This document shows positions 38,141-51,991 of a stretch of 64,000 nt of DNA, one piece after another. Below the pieces are notes generated by a model, which had not been told where the DNA came from, searched no databases, and saw only the letters and a program-made list of their open reading frames with translations. The stretch spans positions 62,001 to 126,000 of the forward strand of contig JAHHHY010000012.1 in the NCBI GenBank assembly GCA_019359125.1. Direction: 5' to 3'. This stretch comes from Pleurocapsa minor GSE-CHR-MK 17-07R (GTDB taxonomy: Bacteria; Chloroflexota; Anaerolineae; Aggregatilineales; Phototrophicaceae). Each line of letters begins with the position of its first letter. Position 1 is the stretch's first letter. Both the position numbers and the translations under genes were made by a program.

Positions 38141-39034
38141 CTAGCTGCGTTCGCCAATCGTGATGGTCAGCGTATGGGCCTGCCCACCGCGCACGATCTT
38201 CGCCTCAACAGCCTTGCCCACGCGGTCGCCCACCAGCACGCCCATCAGGTCGTCCATGTGGCGCACGGTCACGCCGTCCAGGCTGACGATCACATCACCC
38301 AGCACCATGCCGGCCTGCTCTGCCGGGCTGCCTGCCTCCACCGAAATCAGCAGCAGGCCGATTTCCTGGCCCACCGTCTGCGCCAGCGCAGCAGGCAGAC
38401 GCGCAGGCTGCGCGCTCACGCCGAGGAAGCCACGGCGCACACGGCCATGCGCCACCAGCGCATCGGCCACCCGCACCAGCGTGGACGGCGGCAGCGCGAT
38501 GCTCATGCCACGGGCCAGCGCCGAGCTGTTCATACCAACGAAGCTGCCCGAAGCCGCGACCAGCGGCCCGCCGGAGAAACCGGGATACATGGTGACGTCG
38601 GTCTGAATGAACTTCGCGACCGAGCCGCCGCCCATCGTGCGCCACTCGCCATCGACCGTGTTGATGACGCCCAGCGTCGCCTGCACGTTGGCGTCCGGAC
38701 GGCCCACCGCCAGCACGAGCTGGCCCACACGGGCATCGGCTTCGCTGGCCCAGGTCGCGGCGGTCAGGCCGCTGGCCTCGGCGCGCAGCACAGCCACATC
38801 GGTGGACGGGTCGCGGCCCACCAGCACGGCCTTCACCGTCGTGCCGTCGGGCAGGCCAATCTTCACTTCTTCGCGCTCTACCACATGATGCGCGGTGACG
38901 ATCAGGCCGTCTGCCGACCACACGATACCGCTGGCGGGCTGGCGGCGGCGTGCTTCGACACGCACGATGCTGTGGCCGGCGGACTCTACTGCGGATGCCA
39001 GGTCGGCTGAAAGTTGTTCGAATACACTTGCCAT
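38141..39034 (-). CDS. HtrA/DegP-like trypsin-fold protease with PDZ domain, no signal peptide
   Basis: A 297-residue protein. The protease domain has a plausible triad: His50 in VTAHHVV, Asp79 in STDVAVLR and Ser154 in YPGFSGGPLV (family consensus GNSGGPL). A PDZ domain follows (about 200-290, GFLGVSAQPARL, GLLLISVEAGSPAEQAGMVLGDVIVSLDG). The N-terminus MASVFEQLSADLASAVESAG is polar and lacks a signal peptide or membrane anchor, which is unusual for HtrA proteins; a cytoplasmic location is likely. ATG 39034 follows AAAGGAAACTC. The LuxR regulator lies 113 bp upstream on the same strand. Confidence 0.88.
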   Translation of the reverse strand: MASVFEQLSADLASAVESAGHSIVRVEARRRQPASGIVWSADGLIVTAHHVVEREEVKIGLPDGTTVKAVLVGRDPSTDVAVLRAEASGLTAATWASEADARVGQLVLAVGRPDANVQATLGVINTVDGEWRTMGGGSVAKFIQTDVTMYPGFSGGPLVAASGSFVGMNSSALARGMSIALPPSTLVRVADALVAHGRVRRGFLGVSAQPARLPAALAQTVGQEIGLLLISVEAGSPAEQAGMVLGDVIVSLDGVTVRHMDDLMGVLVGDRVGKAVEAKIVRGGQAHTLTITIGERS

Positions 39035-39147
39035 GATTGAGTTTCCTTTGCTTGAATAACCCGTTGACTTCATTGAACCACGGACGGGGGTTACGACACA
39101 TCCGCCAACGGGATAGGTGACCAGCTAACCAAAGGTGCAGCTTCCCC

Positions 39148-39822
39148 TCATAGGGCGAGCAGGCCCATGCGGGTCGCCTTGACGACCGCCTCGGTGCGGC
39201 TTTGCGCGCCCAGCTTGGTGAGGATCGCATTGAGGTGAAATTTGACGGTGTGCTCGGTGATGCCCAGCTGGCGTGCGATCATTTTGTTGGCCAGGCCTTC
39301 GGCCACCAGCGTCAGCACTTCGCGCTCGCGTGGCGTAAATGCATCCAGCGTCGCCTGGGCAGGGGCGACGCGGTCGATCCCCGCACGGGCGACCACGCCA
39401 GGTGCGGCGTCCGGATGCAGCACGACCAGCCCGGCATCTACTGCCAGCAGCGCGGATAACAGCCCGTCCGCCGAGATATCCTGCAGCGCGACACCGCGCA
39501 CGCCCGCCTCCAGCAGCGCGCTGGCCGCTTCCTGCAAAATGTCACGGGCGGAAACGAGCGCGAGAATGGTCACGCCCGTGGCTGCCGCGTCGGCCAGCAT
39601 ATCCAGCAGCGAGAGCGGGTCATAGCCGGTATCCCACACCAGCACATGCGGGCGATACACATCGAGACTGTCCAGCACCGCCTCATCCGACACCTGCCCC
39701 ACCAGCGCCAGATCCGGGCTGTCAGACAGCAGGCCTGCCAGGCCAGCACGGGCCAGCGGGCTTTGCGCGATGACCAGCACGCGCAGAGGCGCGCCGGGGG
39801 AACGTCGGGAAATTACGGGCAT
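39148..39822 (-). CDS. NarL/LuxR-family regulator with degenerate receiver domain
   Basis: A 224-residue DNA-binding regulator. The C-terminus FTPREREVLTLVAEGLANKMIARQLGITEHTVKFHLNAILTKLGAQSRTEAV is a textbook LuxR helix-turn-helix. The N-terminal receiver keeps an Asp at the usual phosphorylation strand (VLVWDTGYD). The acidic pair after strand 1 is replaced (VLVIAQSPL) and the conserved Lys is missing (GVALQDI). It is therefore probably not controlled by ordinary phosphorylation. It may regulate the downstream HtrA-like gene (inference from adjacency). Confidence 0.88.
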   Translation of the reverse strand: MPVISRRSPGAPLRVLVIAQSPLARAGLAGLLSDSPDLALVGQVSDEAVLDSLDVYRPHVLVWDTGYDPLSLLDMLADAAATGVTILALVSARDILQEAASALLEAGVRGVALQDISADGLLSALLAVDAGLVVLHPDAAPGVVARAGIDRVAPAQATLDAFTPREREVLTLVAEGLANKMIARQLGITEHTVKFHLNAILTKLGAQSRTEAVVKATRMGLLAL

Positions 39823-39906: not shown

Positions 39907-40770
39907 CTAGGGTATCGGCAGCGGCAGCAGCATCTCCAGCCGCGAAAACTCGTTGTAGTAGCCCAGCGTCCAGAAGGCAGGCAGCAGCGGGCTATAGGTG
40001 GGCAGATTTTCAAGCTTGGTGTCGAAACGGGGAAACTGCGTGTGCAGATGGCTGAGCAGGCGAATGGCATGTTCGGGGGAATCCGCGCCAATACACACGT
40101 GCGTAAGCTGAAACGCGCCAGTGTGGCAGACCAGCCAGTTGTTTGGCGCATCGTGCAGGGCAAACCCCATCAGGCTCCCCAGGCGCAGCAGCGAGCACGA
40201 TTCATCCAGCCACGAGGGCGCAACGGCATCACGCTCGATCAGGCAGCGTTCGATGGCATCCTGCTCCAGCGACACGCAGGCAGCATCCGGGGTCTCCGGC
40301 GGGCCGGGCGGCCGACGCAGCACCAGCAGTTCGCGACTGGGCTTGAAATCCAGCTTCTGAAACAATTGCAGCGCAGGCAGATTGCCCTGAATGACTTCAA
40401 GCTGGGCAAGCGCCGCGCCGCGCATGCGCCCCTGATCCAGCAGCGCGTGCATCAGAAAGGTGCCCAGCCCGCGCCCGCGGCCCTCCGGCGAGACGCCGAG
40501 GCGCGTGATCCAGCAGCGACTGTCGCGCAGACCCAGCATGCCGATGCCCAGCGGATTCTCGTCGTCGTCATGCACGACCAGTGAGGCAGCCAGGTCCACC
40601 TGATAGGCCTGTACGTAGTCAGCCATACGGCGGCCATTCATCGGCATCGGCACGATGTAGTCCAGGCGCGTGTGATTGTAAATGTCAGCCAGCGTATCCC
40701 AGGAATATTCTGCGGCACTGCGCGCCCTGAACGTCGGCACGGGCGCGCTGCCCAGGCTGTCATTCCGCAT
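39907..40770 (-). CDS. GNAT-family acetyltransferase with extra C-terminal domain
   Basis: A 287-residue protein. A GNAT fold occupies about residues 12-165: strand LVVHDDDENPLGIGMLGL, then WITRLGVSPEGRGRGLGTFLMHALLDQGR with the acetyl-CoA loop RGRGLG, and NLPALQLFQKLDFKPSRELLVL. The remaining ~120 residues match nothing I recognise. ATG 40770 is chosen because it overlaps the end of the response-regulator gene by 11 bp with GGAAA as ribosome site; the frame is open to 40821. It is the last gene of the histidine kinase operon, so its acetylation target may relate to that pathway. Confidence 0.8.
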   Translation of the reverse strand: MRNDSLGSAPVPTFRARSAAEYSWDTLADIYNHTRLDYIVPMPMNGRRMADYVQAYQVDLAASLVVHDDDENPLGIGMLGLRDSRCWITRLGVSPEGRGRGLGTFLMHALLDQGRMRGAALAQLEVIQGNLPALQLFQKLDFKPSRELLVLRRPPGPPETPDAACVSLEQDAIERCLIERDAVAPSWLDESCSLLRLGSLMGFALHDAPNNWLVCHTGAFQLTHVCIGADSPEHAIRLLSHLHTQFPRFDTKLENLPTYSPLLPAFWTLGYYNEFSRLEMLLPLPIP

Positions 40771-41137
40771 GACTGGTTTCCAGGAAGGCATTGACCTGAG
40801 CCACAAATCGGCGCGTGTCAATCGGCTTGGAAATCACACCGCTGCATCCATAGGCCGCGCCCAGGTCATGGGCGATCTGCTCCGGATAAGCGGTGAAAGC
40901 CACCAGCGGCACATGCTTCATCGAAGCTTCCTGACGCAGGATGCCGATCACCGTCTGGCCGTCGATATCAGGCAGGCCCAGGTCCATCAGCACCAGGTCC
41001 GGCTGCACATCGAAAATGGCGGTCAGGCCGGCTTCCCCATCGACAGCCACATGCACGACATGGCCCGCGGCCTCCAGCAGCCTGCGCGCCAGCCGTGCAT
41101 TCTCGTACTGGTCTTCCACAAGCACAATCACGCCCAT
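40760..41137 (-). CDS. Single-domain response regulator (CheY-like)
   Basis: A 125-residue stand-alone receiver. All phosphorylation residues are present: acidic pair in VLVEDQYENARL, phospho-acceptor Asp in LVLMDLGLPDIDG, Thr in LVAFTAYP and Lys in GVISKPID. There is no output domain. It lies 5 bp after the neighbouring receiver gene and overlaps the GNAT start, so it belongs to the kinase operon. It could act as a phosphate shuttle or sink in the relay. Confidence 0.93.
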   Translation of the reverse strand: MGVIVLVEDQYENARLARRLLEAAGHVVHVAVDGEAGLTAIFDVQPDLVLMDLGLPDIDGQTVIGILRQEASMKHVPLVAFTAYPEQIAHDLGAAYGCSGVISKPIDTRRFVAQVNAFLETSHAE

Positions 41138-41142
41138 AGGTA

Positions 41143-41544
41143 CTACTGGCTTTCGCGTTTGGTCTGCTTCAGAAAATGCGCCACGGTTTGCAGCAGCTCC
41201 GCCTTGGTAATCGGCTTCGGCAGATAGCCGTCGCAGCCCGACGCAATAAAGCGCTCGCGGTCGCCGTGCATGGCGTTGGCCGTCAGCGCGATAACCGGCA
41301 CATGGGCCAGCTGCGGATTTTCCTTCAGCCGGTTGGTCACAGCCAGGCCGTCCATATCCGGCAGGTTGATATCCATCAGAATCAGGTCGGGCATTTCTTT
41401 GGCCGCCATTTCCAGGCCAGACGTGCCGTCCACCGCTTCGACCATGTCATATCCGGCATTGCCCAGAATCTTGCGCACAAGGCGCATGTTCTGTGGATTA
41501 TCCTCTACATACAGAATCTTCGCTGCCATAATTCCCGTCATCAT
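41143..41544 (-). CDS. Single-domain response regulator (CheY/DivK-like)
   Basis: A 133-residue stand-alone receiver with intact residues: acidic pair in ILYVEDNPQNMRLV, phospho-acceptor in LILMDINLPDMDG, Thr in VIALTANAM and Lys in YLPKPITK. ALTANAMHGDRERFIASGCDGYLPKPI is the style of receivers that partner hybrid kinases. ATG 41544 has AGGGGGAATT upstream, which decides between several near ATGs. It lies 27 bp after the threonine synthase-receiver fusion. Confidence 0.93.
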   Translation of the reverse strand: MMTGIMAAKILYVEDNPQNMRLVRKILGNAGYDMVEAVDGTSGLEMAAKEMPDLILMDINLPDMDGLAVTNRLKENPQLAHVPVIALTANAMHGDRERFIASGCDGYLPKPITKAELLQTVAHFLKQTKRESQ

Positions 41545-41571
41545 AATTCCCCCTGTCATCAGCGTAAGCTG

Positions 41572-43641
41572 CTATGAAAGCACTCGCCGTAATTCCGTGA
41601 CAAACACCTGTTTGTCATCCCTCGTCTTCTGAAGTATCGCCTGAGTATGCTGTGAAAGGAAATTCACCTGCTCTGGCGTTAGTTCCTGCGCTGTGTACAC
41701 CATCAGCGGCACATCGCGCAGCAGATGATCCGCGCGTATGGTTTCAATCAGGTCGCGCCCGTTGATATCGGGCAGATTCACATCCACGATCATCAGGTCA
41801 GGCCGGTGCTCGTAGGCCAGCTTCAGGCCAGAACGGGAGTCGTTCGCCTCCACAACATGATAGTCGCCGGAGCTCTCGATCATGCGTCGCAACAGCCTGC
41901 GATCGCGCGGCTCGTCATCGATCACCAGCACCCACGCCGGCTCATCCGTCGACGCCGGGCGCGCATCGGCCTGCCCGGAATCGCCCAGCGTGCTGGCGAT
42001 ATGCGCGGCCAGCTGGCTCGTCTCGAAACTGCCCTTCGTCCACACCGAATCGGAATAGCGCGACAGCAGCGCACGATCCGCATCGGTCAGCGACTTGGCC
42101 GACACCACCACCACCGGGATGTGCGCCAGCTCAGGGTCGCCCTTCACGCGTTCCAGCAGCGTGAAACCATCCATAACAGGCATCGTCAGGTCGGTGATGA
42201 TGAGGTCCGGGCGCTGATCACGCGCTTTGGCCAGCGCATCTGCCCCGCTTTGCGCCTCAATCACACGGTACTGCTTGTAGGCGCGCAGCAGCCGGCGAAT
42301 CAGCCGCCGGTCATTCGGATTGTCGTCCACCACCAGAATACTGGTGATCTGTTCATCCAGGTTGTTAAAGGCGGAGCTCAGGCCATCGCCGCCGGTCTGG
42401 ACTGCCGCATGCCCCAGCTCCACGCTCAGCGTGTACTGGTCGCCCAGCACGTGGCTCTCGGCCGGGAAGGTATGGCCGGAACAATTCACCACGACCGTCT
42501 CGCCGGGCGCGACCATGCCCTCGGTAAACATGCGCTCCAGCCCCGCAAACGCGACCGCCGTGGCAGGCTCCACGCTCAGGCCCATCCGGCTGGCCGTGCG
42601 GCGCATCGCCTCAAATGCCTCGCCGTCCGTCACCGAAAACATGGTGCCGCCGGTCTTGAGCACGGCGTTACGCAGCAGCCCGTAGGCAGGGCCCGGGTCG
42701 CCGGTCGCCAGCACATGAATCAGCGTGGTGGGCACCACCGGGTCGGCGCTGGCCTTGTTCGCCTGAAATGCCTGGCTCATCGGCGCGCATCCAGCCACCT
42801 GCACGATGGCCAGCCTGGGCAGCCGGTCGATCAGGCCCATCTGATGCAGCTCGGTGAAGCCTTTCCATACGCCCAGCGGGCCAATGCCCCCGCTGACGGC
42901 CTGCACATACCAGTCCGGGCACTGCCAGGCCGCAGCGCCTGCATCCTCCGACCGCTGCAATCCAAGCTGCTCAGCGATCTCGAATGCCAGCGTCTTCATG
43001 CTTTCCTTGCCGGCAATCGACTTTGCGCCGCGGTCAAAGTGAATGCCCTTGCGCGCTGCAAATTCCGCAGCGACGCGCTTGGTGTCGTCATAGGTGCCGC
43101 TGACACGCACGACTTCCGCGCCGTACAGCGCCGCCTCACGCATTTTCTCGGCGGGCACCTGGCTGGCCATGAACAGCCACAGCCGGATGCCCGCGCGGGC
43201 GCAGTAGGCGGCATAGGCGGCGGCCGCGTTGCCGGTGGAGGCCAGCACGCACTCGCGGATGCCGGCCTTGCGCATGGCAGTGACCGCCACAGCCGCCTGC
43301 CGGTCCTTGAACGAGCTGGTCGGCCCCTGGCGCTCATCCTTCACATAAATCTCGCCCTGTGCGGCATACAGCCGTTCAAGCTGATACGCGCGCAGCAGCG
43401 GGGTGAAGCCCTCCCCCAGCGAAATCTCAGGGTCGGGACCGCTGACGGGCAGCATCTCGTGGTATCGCCACAGGGACTGGGGGCGATGTTGCAGCCCCCG
43501 TCCCCAGACGGTCGCCACGTCCGCGTATGCATAGCTGGCGTCCAGCCAGGCGGAGCCGCATGATTTGCAGCCCGCGCCCATGACCTCATTCGGCTGCACG
43601 GCACCGCATTCCACGCACGTGATTTCACGCAGTGACGTCAT
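41572..43641 (-). CDS. Threonine synthase-like PLP enzyme fused to two receiver domains
   Basis: A 689-residue fusion. Residues 1-~415 are a type II PLP enzyme like threonine synthase: a four-Cys zinc ribbon (Cys9, 12, 25, 28), GEGFTPL (77-83), the PLP lysine in SFKDRQ (Lys112), ASTGNAAAAYAAY (134-146) and the phosphate-binding loop SGGIGPLG (250-257). Threonine synthase turns O-phosphohomoserine into threonine. A short linker leads to receiver 1 (about 433-552; Asp439/440, Asp484, Ser514, Lys536) and receiver 2 (about 570-689; Asp575/576, Asp620, Thr650, Lys672). All phosphorylation residues are present in both. The ATG directly abuts the stop of the histidine kinase gene. No frameshift or internal start separates the parts. 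Confidence 0.9.
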   Translation of the reverse strand: MTSLREITCVECGAVQPNEVMGAGCKSCGSAWLDASYAYADVATVWGRGLQHRPQSLWRYHEMLPVSGPDPEISLGEGFTPLLRAYQLERLYAAQGEIYVKDERQGPTSSFKDRQAAVAVTAMRKAGIRECVLASTGNAAAAYAAYCARAGIRLWLFMASQVPAEKMREAALYGAEVVRVSGTYDDTKRVAAEFAARKGIHFDRGAKSIAGKESMKTLAFEIAEQLGLQRSEDAGAAAWQCPDWYVQAVSGGIGPLGVWKGFTELHQMGLIDRLPRLAIVQVAGCAPMSQAFQANKASADPVVPTTLIHVLATGDPGPAYGLLRNAVLKTGGTMFSVTDGEAFEAMRRTASRMGLSVEPATAVAFAGLERMFTEGMVAPGETVVVNCSGHTFPAESHVLGDQYTLSVELGHAAVQTGGDGLSSAFNNLDEQITSILVVDDNPNDRRLIRRLLRAYKQYRVIEAQSGADALAKARDQRPDLIITDLTMPVMDGFTLLERVKGDPELAHIPVVVVSAKSLTDADRALLSRYSDSVWTKGSFETSQLAAHIASTLGDSGQADARPASTDEPAWVLVIDDEPRDRRLLRRMIESSGDYHVVEANDSRSGLKLAYEHRPDLMIVDVNLPDINGRDLIETIRADHLLRDVPLMVYTAQELTPEQVNFLSQHTQAILQKTRDDKQVFVTELRRVLS

Positions 43642-46600
43642 TTAGTTCTGCGCCAGGTGTGCGGGGCGGATCGGCAGCGTGACGAAAAACTCAGAGCCTT
43701 TGCCGACCTCACTTTGCACCGTGATACTTCCGCCCAGCATTTCTGCAAGACGGCGCGTGATCGCCAGGCCCAGACCGGTGCCGCCCGCGCGGCGCGTCGA
43801 GGTATCGTCCACCTGGCGGAACTGGTCAAAAATCAGCTCCAGATGGGCATTGTCGATGCCGATGCCGGTGTCACGCACCGAGACAAACGCGGTCGCAACG
43901 TCGATACGACCGACGGTCACCGTCACGCTGCCTTTTTCGGTGAACTTGACCGCATTGCCCACCAGATTGGTCAGAATCTGGCGAATACGGATCGGGTCGC
44001 CCAACAGCGGGGGCAGCTTGTCCTGCTCAATCAGCTTCAGTTCCAGATCACGTTCCTTGATGAGGATCGACGCGGTATTCACTGTATCGAGGGCAATCGA
44101 CTTCAGGTCGACTTCAGTGGCATCCATACGCATCTGGCCGGCTTCGATTTTGGCCAGGTCGAGGATGTCATTGATGATCGCCAGCAGATGCTTGCCGCTC
44201 TGGTGAATGATTTCCACGTCCTCAGCCGCATCCGGGGTCAGCTCGCCGTCATCGCCATCCAGGATGACTTCAGAGTAGCCAATGATCGAGTTGAGCGGCG
44301 TGCGCAGCTCATGGCTCATGCTGGCCAGGAACTGCGACTTCAGGCGGTCGACTTCACGGAGGCGGTCCGCCGTCGCACGTTCTGTCTCCAGTGCGAATGT
44401 GACCGAACGCGCATTCTCGATGGCCACACCGATCTGCGCGGCCAGCGTCGATTTGATACGTGCGTCGTTTTCGTTGAAGCGGCCAATCGTCTCGCTCTGC
44501 ACGTCCAGCACGCCGATCAGGCGGTCACCGATGGTGATGGGCACAGCCATTTCAGCACGCGTTTCCGGCAGCAGCGGGTTGGGCAGGAAGTCAGGCGCAG
44601 TCGATACGTCGTTGGCGATAACCACTTCACGGGTGCGGGCAGCAAGGGCAACCAGCGAATGCTCACGCGAGTAGGGAATGCGATGGCCCGCTTCGCGCAT
44701 GCTTTTCCCTGCCACGCCAGCGCCAGCAGCCAGCACCAGGTCGGTGCCTTCGTCATTCAGGAAATAGATATGCGCGTGGTAGAGATTGAAGCGCTCTTTC
44801 GTCAGTTCCACGACCGACTTCAACAGTTCATCCGGATCGAGCACCTGCGTCACTGCATGCGACACGTCGGCCACCGTTTGCAGCTCACGCGCCTGCTTTT
44901 CCAGCACAGCCGCGGACGCGCGTTCTGTCTCCAGCGCATGTGTGACCGAACGTGAGTTTTCAATCGCCACAGCGATCTGCGCGCCCAGCGTCGACTTGAT
45001 ACGCGCGTCATTCTCGTTGAAACGGCCCACTGTCTCGCTCTGCACGTCCAGCACGCCGATCAGGCGGTCACCGATGGTCATCGGCACGGCCATTTCTGCG
45101 CGTGTTTCAGGCAGCAGGGGGTTGGGCAGGAAGTCGGGCGCCGTCGATACGTCGTTGGCGATAACCACTTCGCGGGTACGGGCAGCGCGCGCCACCAGCG
45201 AATGCTCACGCGAGTAAGGAATGTGATGGCCCGCTTCTTTCATCTTCTGGCCAGGCAGACCGGCACCAGCAGCCAGCACCAGGTCGGTGCCGTCTTCATT
45301 CAGGAAATAGATGTGCGCGTGGTACAGGTTGAAGCGTTCTTTGGTCAGATTCACGACCGATTCCAGCAGTTCATCAGGGTCCAGCACCTGCGTGACGGCT
45401 CGCGACACGTCGGCCACCGTTTGCAGCTCACGCGCCTGCTTTTCCAGCGCGGACTGCGCCTGCTTGCGCTCGGTAATGTTCTCGAACGAAATGGCGACGC
45501 TCAGGTTGGGCAGCGGGATTGAGCTGACCAGATAGGTCCCGGCGCCAGACTGCGCATCTTCATAAGGCACCTCGCCGATCGTGACGCCCACGCCAGAGTG
45601 CGCCACCTGCGCGTGAATCCCCGGCAGCGGCGTATCTTTCAGCGGCGGGAATGCTTCCACCAGCAGCCGGTTGACGACATCCTCATTGGGGCGGCCCATG
45701 AAGCGTTCCGCCGCGGGATTGGCCGCCACAATGCGGAAAGAGAACGGATCATTGGCGTCTTCCATGCGGCATACATAGACGCCGATGGGCATACTGGCCA
45801 CCACTTCCGAGTACGTGCGCACTTCCTGGTCTTTGGCGCGCTGCTGCAGACCGATACTGACCTGCACCGCCATGTTCTCGGCCATGTCAATTTCATTTTG
45901 CTGGAAGACATGCTGCTGCGACACAAAATTGAGGAACAGCACGCCATATACGCGACCATCGACTTCCAGCGGCAGCACCATGACCGACTTGATGCCAAGT
46001 GTGTCGATGTAGTAGAACGGGAAATCCGGATAGTCTTTGGCACTGGTCACGGCGACCACGCGCTTCTCGCGCAGTGACTCCAGACCGTGCGGATAAGTAG
46101 TCGCAGGGTCGATGAAGTTGCGGGCCATCTCGTTGGTGATGCCACCGCCGGTGCCCACCAGTCCGTTCCAGTGATCCGTCTCATAGTTGTAACGCGAGAC
46201 GACGCCGCTGTCCGCGCCAAACACGTTCAGGATCAGCTTCAGGGCGCCATCCAGCAGTTGATCACTGCTGGCAGTCGAACGGATCAGCGCCGAGATGGAA
46301 GACAGCGCGCGCTCAAATTCAGCCTGTCGCTGCGAATGAGCGTATTCATTCGCGTTTTGAATGGCTGTCGCCAGCTGGCGGGCCAGCGTCTTCTTCACCA
46401 GAATGTCCGACTCGCCAAACCGACCGCGTTCATCTGACTGCACATCCAGCACGCCAATCAGGCGGTCACCCAGCAGAATCGGCAGCGCATGTTCAGAGCG
46501 GGCATAGGGCAGCATCGGATTGGGTAAATAGCTGGGGTCGCTGGTCAGGTCGGAAATGATAACGCCGTCTTTCGACAGGGCAGCCTGCACAATGACCGAT

Positions 46601-47934
46601 TGGGTGCTTGTCAGGTCCAGCGCATGCCCGTGCGACTTCATGAAAGCGCCGGCCGTGCCTGAACCTGCGGCCAGCACCAGCTTCTTTTCCGCGTCGTCCA
46701 GCAGATACACCTGGGCATGATACAGATCAAAGCCTGTTTTGGTTTCTTCCACGAACAATTCCAGCATTTCATCCAGATCGAGGATGCCTGCCACAGTGGT
46801 GCTGATTTCCGCTACCGTCTGCAGCTTGCGGCGCTGATCTTCAAGCATCCGGTCCAGGTGCAAACGCTCCACTTTGTCGGCAACCAGCTGGCCCACCTGA
46901 CTGAAGACACCTGCATCCGCCTGGCTGAACGCATGCCGATGCGGCGAAATCAGCGTCATCAGGCCGAACCAGCGTCCATCGACTACCAGCGGCGCATAAA
47001 TGGCGCTGTTCAGCGACTGCGCCAGCATGTAGCCGCGCGACTGTTCGTCCAGCAGCGGGTCGGTGGCGATATCGGGAATCACACCAATGCTGTCAGGGCT
47101 CAGCGCGTTCAATACGGGAAGCATGCCTATCGGCAGGTCAGCCAGCGAGGGGTCAAGCGGCTGTGTCGATGCCAGTGTCCTGACGAAAGTTGCCCTTTCG
47201 AAATTGTAGTTTTCAAAGACAGACAGGCTGATGTTTACGTTCTGCTGGGGCAGCACACCGGCCAGACCCTGGATCACTTCTGCTTCGTCGCGGGCCAGAC
47301 CAATTGCCTGCGTCAGCGCGGCCAGCGTCTGGGCTGACTGACGCGCCGCATTCACCTCGGAATAGGCGATAGCATTGTCCAGCGCGACAGCGATCTGGTT
47401 GGCCAGCGCCTGCTTGATGCTGATGTCCAGCGCGTCAAAGCGGTTCACTTCCCTGGCCTGCACGTCCAGCACGCCCAGCAGCTGGCCGGCGGCAATGATC
47501 GGAATTGACATTTCCGCGCGCGTTTCGGGCAGCAGCGGGTTGGGCAGGAAGTTCTCGGCGGCGGCGACGTCATTGGTGACCACCGGCGCCCCCGTGATAG
47601 CGGCCTGCACCACCACGCTATGCTCACGGCTGATGGGGATGCTGTGGCCAGTGGCCTTCATCCGGTCGCCAACCTCGCCCGCGCCCGCTTCCACGCGCAG
47701 TGCTGCAGCGCCTGCATCAAATACATAAATCTGCGCGTGATACAGGTTGAAGCGTTCGCGCACTTCGTTGGTCACACGCTTGAGCAGCGCCGCAGGATCA
47801 CGCTCAGTCGCGACCGCCTGGCTGATCTCCACAATGATCTCAAGCTGCGCTGCACGACGTTCATTAACGTTGTCGCGAGAATTGTCTTTGGCTGGGTATG
47901 TATTCAGGCCCTGCACTAAATCCGTCATTGTCAT
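43642..47934 (-). CDS. Multi-GAF/PAS sensor histidine kinase
   Basis: A soluble sensor kinase of about 1430 residues. Read from the N-terminus there are four GAF-like domains (about 30-195, 205-365, 370-535, 540-705), a PAS-like segment (about 710-840, ending ISFENITERKQAQ), two nearly identical GAF domains (about 845-1025 and 1025-1205), then HisKA with the phospho-acceptor in MSHELRTPLNS and HATPase_c with NLVGNAVKF, DTGIGI and GGTGLGLAI. There are no membrane helices, so signals are internal. ATG 47934 has GGGGAAG at good spacing; ATG 47955 is in frame but its AGGAG is too close. First gene of a five-gene operon ending at 39907. Confidence 0.93.
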   Translation of the reverse strand: MTMTDLVQGLNTYPAKDNSRDNVNERRAAQLEIIVEISQAVATERDPAALLKRVTNEVRERFNLYHAQIYVFDAGAAALRVEAGAGEVGDRMKATGHSIPISREHSVVVQAAITGAPVVTNDVAAAENFLPNPLLPETRAEMSIPIIAAGQLLGVLDVQAREVNRFDALDISIKQALANQIAVALDNAIAYSEVNAARQSAQTLAALTQAIGLARDEAEVIQGLAGVLPQQNVNISLSVFENYNFERATFVRTLASTQPLDPSLADLPIGMLPVLNALSPDSIGVIPDIATDPLLDEQSRGYMLAQSLNSAIYAPLVVDGRWFGLMTLISPHRHAFSQADAGVFSQVGQLVADKVERLHLDRMLEDQRRKLQTVAEISTTVAGILDLDEMLELFVEETKTGFDLYHAQVYLLDDAEKKLVLAAGSGTAGAFMKSHGHALDLTSTQSVIVQAALSKDGVIISDLTSDPSYLPNPMLPYARSEHALPILLGDRLIGVLDVQSDERGRFGESDILVKKTLARQLATAIQNANEYAHSQRQAEFERALSSISALIRSTASSDQLLDGALKLILNVFGADSGVVSRYNYETDHWNGLVGTGGGITNEMARNFIDPATTYPHGLESLREKRVVAVTSAKDYPDFPFYYIDTLGIKSVMVLPLEVDGRVYGVLFLNFVSQQHVFQQNEIDMAENMAVQVSIGLQQRAKDQEVRTYSEVVASMPIGVYVCRMEDANDPFSFRIVAANPAAERFMGRPNEDVVNRLLVEAFPPLKDTPLPGIHAQVAHSGVGVTIGEVPYEDAQSGAGTYLVSSIPLPNLSVAISFENITERKQAQSALEKQARELQTVADVSRAVTQVLDPDELLESVVNLTKERFNLYHAHIYFLNEDGTDLVLAAGAGLPGQKMKEAGHHIPYSREHSLVARAARTREVVIANDVSTAPDFLPNPLLPETRAEMAVPMTIGDRLIGVLDVQSETVGRFNENDARIKSTLGAQIAVAIENSRSVTHALETERASAAVLEKQARELQTVADVSHAVTQVLDPDELLKSVVELTKERFNLYHAHIYFLNDEGTDLVLAAGAGVAGKSMREAGHRIPYSREHSLVALAARTREVVIANDVSTAPDFLPNPLLPETRAEMAVPITIGDRLIGVLDVQSETIGRFNENDARIKSTLAAQIGVAIENARSVTFALETERATADRLREVDRLKSQFLASMSHELRTPLNSIIGYSEVILDGDDGELTPDAAEDVEIIHQSGKHLLAIINDILDLAKIEAGQMRMDATEVDLKSIALDTVNTASILIKERDLELKLIEQDKLPPLLGDPIRIRQILTNLVGNAVKFTEKGSVTVTVGRIDVATAFVSVRDTGIGIDNAHLELIFDQFRQVDDTSTRRAGGTGLGLAITRRLAEMLGGSITVQSEVGKGSEFFVTLPIRPAHLAQN
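44381..45466 (-). repeat. In-frame tandem duplication of a GAF module
   Basis: Two copies of a 543-bp (181-codon) unit, 44381-44923 and 44924-45466, differ at only a small share of residues. Both hold TKERFNLYHAHIYFLN, IPYSREHSL and FLPNPLLPETRAEMAVP. Recent duplication within the kinase gene. Confidence 0.85.
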
Positions 47935-48097
47935 TGCACGCTTCCCCTTTTTCATACACTCCTGCTCGGACCTTCCTGATTACGCACAGGCCCAATGCAG
48001 TGGTGAGTCTGATTCAAACACCAGCGATTGCTTTCATTTTAGGGGGGCAGTGAATGGAAATAGAATAAAGATTAATTACAGCGCGTTATAGAAATAG

Positions 48098-50981: not shown

Positions 50982-51593
50982 ATGCCAGATCAATCAGACA
51001 ACAACACGTCAGTTCCGGCTGACGCACCAGCAGCGAAACCAGCCCAGCCGAACAAGTGCCGGGCGTGTGGCCACCTGAATCGTCCAGGATCGCTCATCTG
51101 CGATAACTGCGGCACCAGCCTGATGGCTGGCGAAGGCGCGATCGGCGGCACCAAGCGCTTCAACAAGACGGGTGAAGCCGAGGGCGAAGGCACGATCAAG
51201 GTCAGCACCGAGGAATTTGCGGCGGTCACGGCCGCCGGCAGCACGAGATTCACGCGCGAGATGATTCTGCGCCTGGAAATTGAGGGGTCTTCCACGCCGC
51301 TGCTGGTGCCGTTCCGGCATGAGCTGGCGCTGGGCCGGCGCGATCCGTCCACCGGCAACATGCCGGAAATCGACCTGACGGCCTTTGCGGCCTATCGCCT
51401 GGGGGTCAGCCGACGCCACGCGATCCTGAAGGCTGATGGCGAAAAGCTGGAAGTGTATGATCTGGGCAGCAGCAATGGCACTGCCATCAATGGCAACAAG
51501 CTGGCGCCGCATCAGCCGCATATCCTGCGCGACGGGGATATGATTGTGCTGGGCAAGATGGTGATGCGCGCAATCTTCCATCAGAAGCGCTAG
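50982..51593 (+). CDS. Zinc-ribbon and FHA-domain protein
   Basis: A 203-residue soluble protein. An N-terminal Pro/Ala-rich stretch leads to a zinc ribbon (KCRACGHLNRPGSLICDNCG, about residues 25-44), a linker with Thr-rich sequence TGEAEGEGTIKVSTEE that could be a kinase target, then an FHA domain (about 105-200) with GRRDPSTG, VSRRHAILK and LGSSNGTAING, the phosphothreonine-binding signature. FHA proteins read Ser/Thr kinase output; the kinase at 27.4 kb is a candidate partner. Its stop overlaps that of the convergent roadblock gene. Confidence 0.9.
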   Translation: MPDQSDNNTSVPADAPAAKPAQPNKCRACGHLNRPGSLICDNCGTSLMAGEGAIGGTKRFNKTGEAEGEGTIKVSTEEFAAVTAAGSTRFTREMILRLEIEGSSTPLLVPFRHELALGRRDPSTGNMPEIDLTAFAAYRLGVSRRHAILKADGEKLEVYDLGSSNGTAINGNKLAPHQPHILRDGDMIVLGKMVMRAIFHQKR

Positions 51594-51991
51594 CCGCCAA
51601 TCACCTCGACGATTTCGGCGGCCGCTTTCTTGGTGGCATACAACGCATAGCTCAGGCGGGCGCCCTTCTCCACCAGCACCGCCACCGAGGCTTTGCCAGC
51701 CGGATAGACCACCATCACGCCGTCCTGGCCTTCCATCAGAATACGCTCCAGGTCACCCTGGGCCAGGCGGCGCAGCGTCTTGTCTGCCAGCGCCACCAGC
51801 GAGGCCGACATCGCGGCCACCTGCGGCGAGCTGGTTGGATTCTCGTAGTAATTCTCATCATCGCCCGGTGGATAGGCCGCCACCAGCAAACCATCACTGT
51901 TGACGATCACCGTCGCTTTTACACCATCGGAAGCAGCATGCAGCTTCTTGAGGATTCGCTCGAGTATGTCGCTGCGATATTCCTGGGCCAT
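51590..51991 (-). CDS. Roadblock/LC7-domain protein
   Basis: A 133-residue single-domain protein. ILKKLHAASDGVKATVIVNSDGLLVAAYPPG, then AAMSASLVALADKTLRRLAQGDLERILMEGQDGVMVVYPAG is the MglB/roadblock fold, which typically regulates a small Ras-like GTPase or forms a dimeric scaffold. No MglA-like GTPase is in the window. A TATACT-like -10 lies upstream on the minus strand. The following 154-bp gap (51992-52145) shows nothing else. Confidence 0.9.
   Translation of the reverse strand: MAQEYRSDILERILKKLHAASDGVKATVIVNSDGLLVAAYPPGDDENYYENPTSSPQVAAMSASLVALADKTLRRLAQGDLERILMEGQDGVMVVYPAGKASVAVLVEKGARLSYALYATKKAAAEIVEVIGG

Follow-up and report, generated by a model that had tools for sequence, protein, structure and literature searches.

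A histidine-kinase operon in the genome deposited as Pleurocapsa minor GSE-CHR-MK 17-07R (phylum Chloroflexota) is probably a two-component system whose output is a pyridoxal phosphate (PLP) enzyme gated by phosphorelay, a reading to which we give a probability of about 0.6. The operon lies in a stretch of 64,000 nucleotides, here called the window (C19:62001-126000 of a 4.85-Mb genome that is 98% complete). Its central gene encodes a threonine-synthase-like PLP enzyme joined to two receiver domains. The usual end point of a two-component system is DNA binding, a second messenger or a protein contact; in this family, widespread in Chloroflexota, a fold-type II PLP enzyme is wired to a sensor kinase, and the small-molecule reaction itself would be the signalling output. 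Open reading frames (ORFs) and Pfam matches give the order of transcription on the minus strand as histidine kinase, PALP-REC-REC fusion (PALP, the PLP enzyme domain; REC, receiver), two lone receivers, a GNAT acetyltransferase and a NarL/LuxR-type regulator:

43642-47955, minus strand: sensor histidine kinase, 1437 aa (ORF and Pfam: six GAF_2 stretches, one PAS_4, HisKA and HATPase_c; without receiver)
41572-43641, minus strand: PALP-REC-REC fusion of 689 aa, a PLP enzyme resembling threonine synthase and joined to two receivers (ORF and Pfam)
42475-43425, minus strand: PALP domain of the fusion, residues 73-389 (Pfam, 217 bits); predicted PLP lysine Lys112
41986-42339, minus strand: REC1 of the fusion, about residues 435-552, phosphoacceptor D484 (Pfam Response_reg)
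41575-41934, minus strand: REC2 of the fusion, about residues 570-689, phosphoacceptor D620 (Pfam Response_reg)
41143-41559, minus strand: stand-alone receiver 1, 138 aa (ORF and Pfam Response_reg)
40760-41137, minus strand: stand-alone receiver 2, 125 aa (ORF and Pfam Response_reg)
39907-40821, minus strand: GNAT acetyltransferase (Pfam Acetyltransf_1), C-terminal half conserved; alternative starts at 40791 or 40770
39148-39822, minus strand: NarL/LuxR-type regulator (family-model matches), possibly the last gene of the operon

A preliminary description, made from the letters of the window, had reported the 689-residue fusion, its start against the stop of a GAF/PAS histidine kinase and a full set of phosphorylation residues, and all of this is borne out. 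The ATG is the base right after the kinase stop (0 bp gap). A zinc ribbon (residues 9-28) precedes the PALP domain, and the two Response_reg stretches (139.8 bits) carry D439/D440, D484, S514 and K536 in REC1 and D575/D576, D620, T650 and K672 in REC2. Pfam finds no DNA-binding or second-messenger domain in the fusion and no membrane domain in the kinase. Downstream, the reported 5-bp gap between the lone receivers stands; a 27-bp gap and an 11-bp overlap came from the choice of internal ATGs, and with first start codons the fusion and receiver 1 are 12 bp apart while receiver 2 and the GNAT gene overlap by 62 bp. In all, the operon encodes four receivers, two fused and two lone.

The fusion is no isolated case. 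PALP proteins extracted from the collected loci comprise 146 that are distinct by their PALP part, with two receivers in 48, one in 53 and none in 45. The 47 PALP-REC-REC proteins other than the window's rule out chance and a sequencing or assembly frameshift, since the fused architecture recurs in dozens of genomes. Many genomes from the family and order of the window contain relatives that are 50-64% identical across at least 650 of the 689 residues. In a sample of the class, 100 of 298 genomes match at E <= 1e-60, and in 95 the match runs from PALP to residue 500 or beyond, into REC1, with five partial; the search reads through stops, so that some rows hold one or two, often close to the match end. 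Partial matches in this sample include those in genomes G227 and G346. A phylum sample, which overlaps the class sample, has matches in 61 of 400 genomes: 42 extend into REC (35 in the class and seven outside it, six of one genus and one of another family), and the remaining 19 cover PALP alone, at 35-40% identity.

No fused match was found outside Chloroflexota at E <= 1e-60 in 246 genomes of the phylum of Winogradskya (five PALP-only), 194 of the phylum of Nostoc (four with members lacking a visible receiver) or three further samples of 198, 149 and 200 genomes; an empty search result is weak by itself, and the identical query does match in Chloroflexota. None of 1059 matching plasmid records spans 80% of the fusion query. 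A public-genome scan gave no PALP with a receiver among the best 80 of 403 relatives, where the exact 8-residue patterns used can miss relatives of 50% identity. In a PALP-domain tree (102 rows thinned from 153; a quick tree with long branches, whose internal order is unreliable), all 68 fused rows lie on one side of a single branch with an SH-aLRT of 100 and a length of 1.48. The two-receiver label needs four changes on the tree; thus REC2 has been gained or lost more than once.

The protein of L275 (G066:C1) and L136, from a near-complete genome of the order, has a frame that stops after REC1 with no second receiver detected. Since the tree nests it among the two-receiver proteins, REC2 appears to have been lost there. 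Candidate unfused members within the Chloroflexota clade were rejected: the short matches in G353, G201, G080 and G005 stop at contig ends. A match in G076:C38 (39% identity over 43-389, no receiver nearby), outside the tree set, looks like an outgroup. A single chain of kinase and enzyme at L249 (1695 aa) was discarded as an out-of-frame extension, judged by eye.

The receivers are conserved in the residues that matter for phosphorylation. The phosphoacceptor aspartate is kept in 48/48 REC1, 46/48 REC2 and 53/53 single receivers, and the receiver lysine in 48/48, 45/48 and 53/53, respectively; at all five phosphorylation sites of REC1 the commonest residue is found in 47 or 48 of 48. For the gene neighbourhoods, 80 stretches were picked by hand from lists (one without the fusion, some near-duplicates) and parsed together with the window by a simple ORF rule; the resulting set holds 80 fused loci, 38 with two receivers and 42 with one. 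A kinase is the adjacent upstream gene on the same strand in 25 of the 38 PALP-REC-REC and 34 of the 42 PALP-REC loci. In two-receiver loci the next gene is a receiver in 35, a GNAT lies in the run in 16, another PALP in one and an EamA transporter in none. One-receiver loci are followed by a receiver in nine and a receiver-kinase in 19, with EamA in 20 and another PALP in four; a GNAT is downstream in none and upstream of the kinase in two (L231, L232). Relatives and neighbourhoods thus support the earlier proposal of a complete PLP enzyme partnered with receivers and linked to a histidine kinase, and they show the unit to be conserved. Of the marks of a response regulator with an enzymatic output, the receiver residues, the PLP-site residues and a kinase alongside are present.

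A second fusion is encoded in the same genome, a one-receiver PALP of 559 aa at C1:35708-37327 (L140:8661-10340, minus strand) followed by a receiver-kinase of 440 aa. In relatives its operon usually opens with a GAF kinase, as long as 2843 aa and carrying one or two receivers, and often closes with EamA. As to the GNAT, the L231 protein, from a genome that is not of the class, shares 38% identity with that of the window, whose best match in the Protein Data Bank (PDB) reaches only E 1.8e-4. The GNAT family (L120-L132, L231, L247, L252 and the window) shares DYI[VI]PMPMN in six aligned members, and its C-terminal half is conserved.

The enzyme part retains its catalytic signature. All 101 fused proteins keep Lys112, S135-T136-G137-N138, S250-G251-G252, G254, G389, T391 and the cysteines (Cys 9, 12, 25 and 28) of the zinc ribbon that the preliminary description had recognised; only one of them lacks H390. 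All but one of the 101 fused rows contain the string KDER..PT.SFKDRQ, against none of the 45 unfused ones. Thermus thermophilus threonine synthase numbering was mapped by alignment onto the window protein, so that Lys61, Ser84, Asn87 and Thr88 correspond to K112, S135, N138 and A139, and Asn154, Ser155, Arg160, Asn188 and Thr317 to R204, G205, G211, G251 and S388. We take T88, N154, S155, R160 and N188 to be ligands of the substrate phosphate and the STGN loop to hold the carboxylate. Among the 101 fused proteins, arginine never occupies the R160 position (G 43, A 42, S 12, C 2, V 2), glycine fills the S155 and N188 positions in every one, and the T88 position is A, V or K. The motif NP.R.EG, present in 4/4 ThrC, is found in 0/101 fused proteins; 39 of the 45 other unfused relatives have a looser form, [NE]P[YFHV]R.EG. 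At position 204, 75 of the 101 fused proteins carry R or K, but the stand-alone members that were read carry Q, which speaks against a phosphate site that has moved. The carboxylate and PLP sites thus appear to be kept and the phosphate site lost. With the PLP lysine, STGN and SGG retained in all 101, the fusion is probably an active enzyme with another amino acid, probably unphosphorylated, as its substrate.

The stand-alone members come from four of the 194 genomes of the phylum of Nostoc. They are 49-52% identical, have no visible receiver and retain the active-site signature, PLP residues included; three stop after the enzyme and the fourth runs off a contig end. BLAST with reference domains found no kinase or receiver within 8-19.5 kb around them, and their neighbours (Mg-chelatase-like, citrate transporter, GH3, MFS and others) make no pathway evident. 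A second tree nests them with the PALP-REC proteins (SH-aLRT 98), which means either receiver loss or a secondary fusion. By the preliminary description, homologues lacking both fused receivers and a neighbouring kinase would count against its proposal. Such homologues do exist; they show that the enzyme part is separable, and the fusion remains real.

These proteins also bear on the idea that the PALP domain is a ligand sensor, binding an amino acid or PLP and modulating receiver phosphorylation, with output through the lone receivers or the LuxR protein. A lone receiver does come next in 35 of the 38 two-receiver loci, and the fusion has no DNA-binding or second-messenger domain of its own. 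The PLP-site residues, however, are invariant in 101 of 101 fused proteins and are kept even where neither receiver nor kinase was found nearby, which makes a working enzyme the likelier case; we consider a sensor unlikely.

The proposal that the kinase tunes threonine synthesis is not supported. Under it, the fusion would be a second, signal-regulated threonine synthase, making threonine from O-phosphohomoserine with a flux tuned by phosphorylation. The best NCBIfam matches of the fusion do carry the threonine synthase name, and threonine synthases are also the structures closest to it (2c2b, Z 43.5, rmsd 2.3 over 380; 2d1f, Z 39.6, rmsd 2.5 over 327), as expected of a relative. Against this, the genome, with nine PALP matches, has its own thrC at C22:267459-268802 (TIGR00260 266.7 bits, cut-off 167.1), adjoining the homoserine kinase gene thrB (301.7 bits, cut-off 194). 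A second C22 PALP gene, L001, is over both threonine-synthase cut-offs (TIGR00260 211.9; NF006050 329.3, cut-off 303), and the window fusion is under both (148.6 and 260 bits). It has the SFKD lysine and STGN loop of ThrC, as do all 101 fused proteins, and lacks the residues presumed to form the phosphate site (NPxRxEG, R160, N188), the presumed ligands T88, S155, R160 and N188 being replaced throughout the fused set. Because of the separate thrC beside thrB, the score below cut-off and the motif lost in 101 of 101, the threonine hypothesis is weakened; the fusion probably does not make threonine, and a second threonine synthase is improbable.

That the PALP domain merely dimerises and keeps the receivers near the kinase, its residues being retained for PLP-dependent folding, is highly improbable: PLP can stabilise folds of this kind and the operon has four receivers, but the PLP lysine, carboxylate loop and PLP-phosphate loop are all among the invariant columns, and stand-alone members exist.

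Several observations weigh against a kinase-gated enzyme with a substrate other than that of threonine synthase. The adjacent upstream kinase is missing from 13 of the 38 two-receiver and 8 of the 42 one-receiver loci, in part owing to contig ends. No recognised kinase lies 5' of the L140 fusion, where the upstream ORF of 1387 aa has no Pfam match. The AlphaFold model of the fusion (mean pLDDT 82) is not confident on domain packing, with a pTM of 0.60 and the linker 391-429 under 50. Sister PALP-REC proteins exceed the TIGR00260 cut-off of 167.1 (L140 170.7, L149 176.1, L187 169.2), while L120 (145.8) is below it and L207 (167.0) just misses; with one-receiver fusions at 169-176 bits, TIGR00260 alone cannot separate the fused clade from ThrC. 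Finally, a stand-alone PALP gene follows in the run at 4 of 42 PALP-REC loci, and those of at least three are of the PRK08197 type, which may connect the fusions with threonine or with a substrate in common. These runs, at L224, L225, L226 and L229, have the order PALP-REC, lone receiver, stand-alone PALP, the last a possible partner enzyme; three of the four were scanned (L224, L226, L229) and are PRK08197-type 'threonine synthases' at 577-580 bits.

From the observed architecture, the conserved PLP-site and phosphorylation residues, the conserved operon and the separate thrC, we infer the following course for a phosphorelay-gated enzyme. The kinase would integrate small-molecule cues through its GAF and PAS domains; in relatives, dCache receptors and an NMT1-type binding protein would be further inputs. 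It would then autophosphorylate and donate phosphate to the fusion, at D484 and D620, as well as to the lone receivers. The phosphorylated receivers, on their flexible linker, would alter dimerisation or contacts and so switch the PALP domain, which would act on an amino acid, probably not O-phosphohomoserine, to give a product that is probably not threonine. This product might be modified by the GNAT in the window's operon family or exported by EamA in the sister operons. The linker from the enzyme end motif to REC1 has a median of 45 residues and a range of 37-53 (100 of 101 fused proteins); this length and the low-confidence stretch 391-429 of the model suggest control by dimerisation or transient docking, not rigid packing. 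Single-aspartate mutants make phosphorylation control directly testable, with the stand-alone members as a natural receiver-free control.

BLAST labels genes as NMT1 in 8 of the 81 loci and as dCache in 15; Pfam confirmed both in L121 and dCache in L133. With NMT1-type proteins near the kinase, it is as if the operon sensed a ligand captured outside the cell. The protein at L121:1441-2568 is an NMT1/THI5-type binding protein, and such proteins occur near dCache sensors and the kinase in several relatives. More speculatively, and we think doubtfully, the operons could be self-contained circuits of chemical communication or homeostasis, in which the gated PLP enzyme makes an amino-acid-derived molecule, the GNAT acetylates it or EamA exports it, and the dCache receptors and NMT1-type protein, which relatives encode upstream, sense the same molecule outside the cell.

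The kind of protein is known: bacterial receivers are found attached to metabolic enzymes, whose activity is thereby open to environmental control (PMC5847659, J Bacteriol 2018). The variation here is a fold-type II PLP enzyme as output, spread over the class and also present in some other Chloroflexota genomes. A literature search of titles and abstract openings returned no description of a receiver on a fold-type II PLP enzyme, from which absence from print does not follow. A PLP parallel is the AAT-fold ornithine/lysine/arginine decarboxylases, which are also fused to a receiver-like domain and have an ancestral wingless form (PMC8503589); they differ in being fold-type I with the receiver-like wing N-terminal. 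The window's domain is a Pfam PALP with threonine synthases as closest structures and so falls outside the AAT fold. We know of no operon kinase for the decarboxylases with a receiver wing.

Among fold-type II enzymes, ThrC (TIGR00260; PDB 2zsj, 1uim, 2d1f, 2c2b) has the fold, PLP lysine and STGN loop in common with the window fusion, which differs in its fused receivers, in the replacement of the NSVNPxRxEGQKT and GNAGN motifs and in the presence of a separate thrC in its genome. The PRK08197 group (NF006050, annotated threonine synthase) shares zinc ribbon and PALP and is the best NCBIfam match at 260 bits, yet the fusion is under the 303-bit cut-off and on a separate tree branch. The plant threonine synthase with S-adenosylmethionine (PDB 2c2b), its top structural match, has the same fold; control there is, we presume, allosteric through a ligand and not through receivers. 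The fusions are similar enough to threonine synthase for family models to give them that name, though the window's genome has its own thrC. The family suggests that the many Chloroflexota cells with such a fusion turn a metabolic reaction on or off directly by signalling.

The NarL/LuxR-type regulator at 39148-39822 also lies 3' of the GNAT in L125, L126 and L132. By eye, neither the acidic pair nor the lysine is present in its receiver half, and it may be a pseudo-receiver. The regulator is followed by a gene at 38141-39073, protease-like by eye, and the pair recurs in the same three loci. Beyond the kinase, two convergent genes lie 5' of a glycosyltransferase-like gene: one at 51590-51991 on the minus strand for a Roadblock/LC7 protein (Pfam), the other at 50982-51593 on the plus strand for a protein that by eye is FHA-like with a zinc ribbon.

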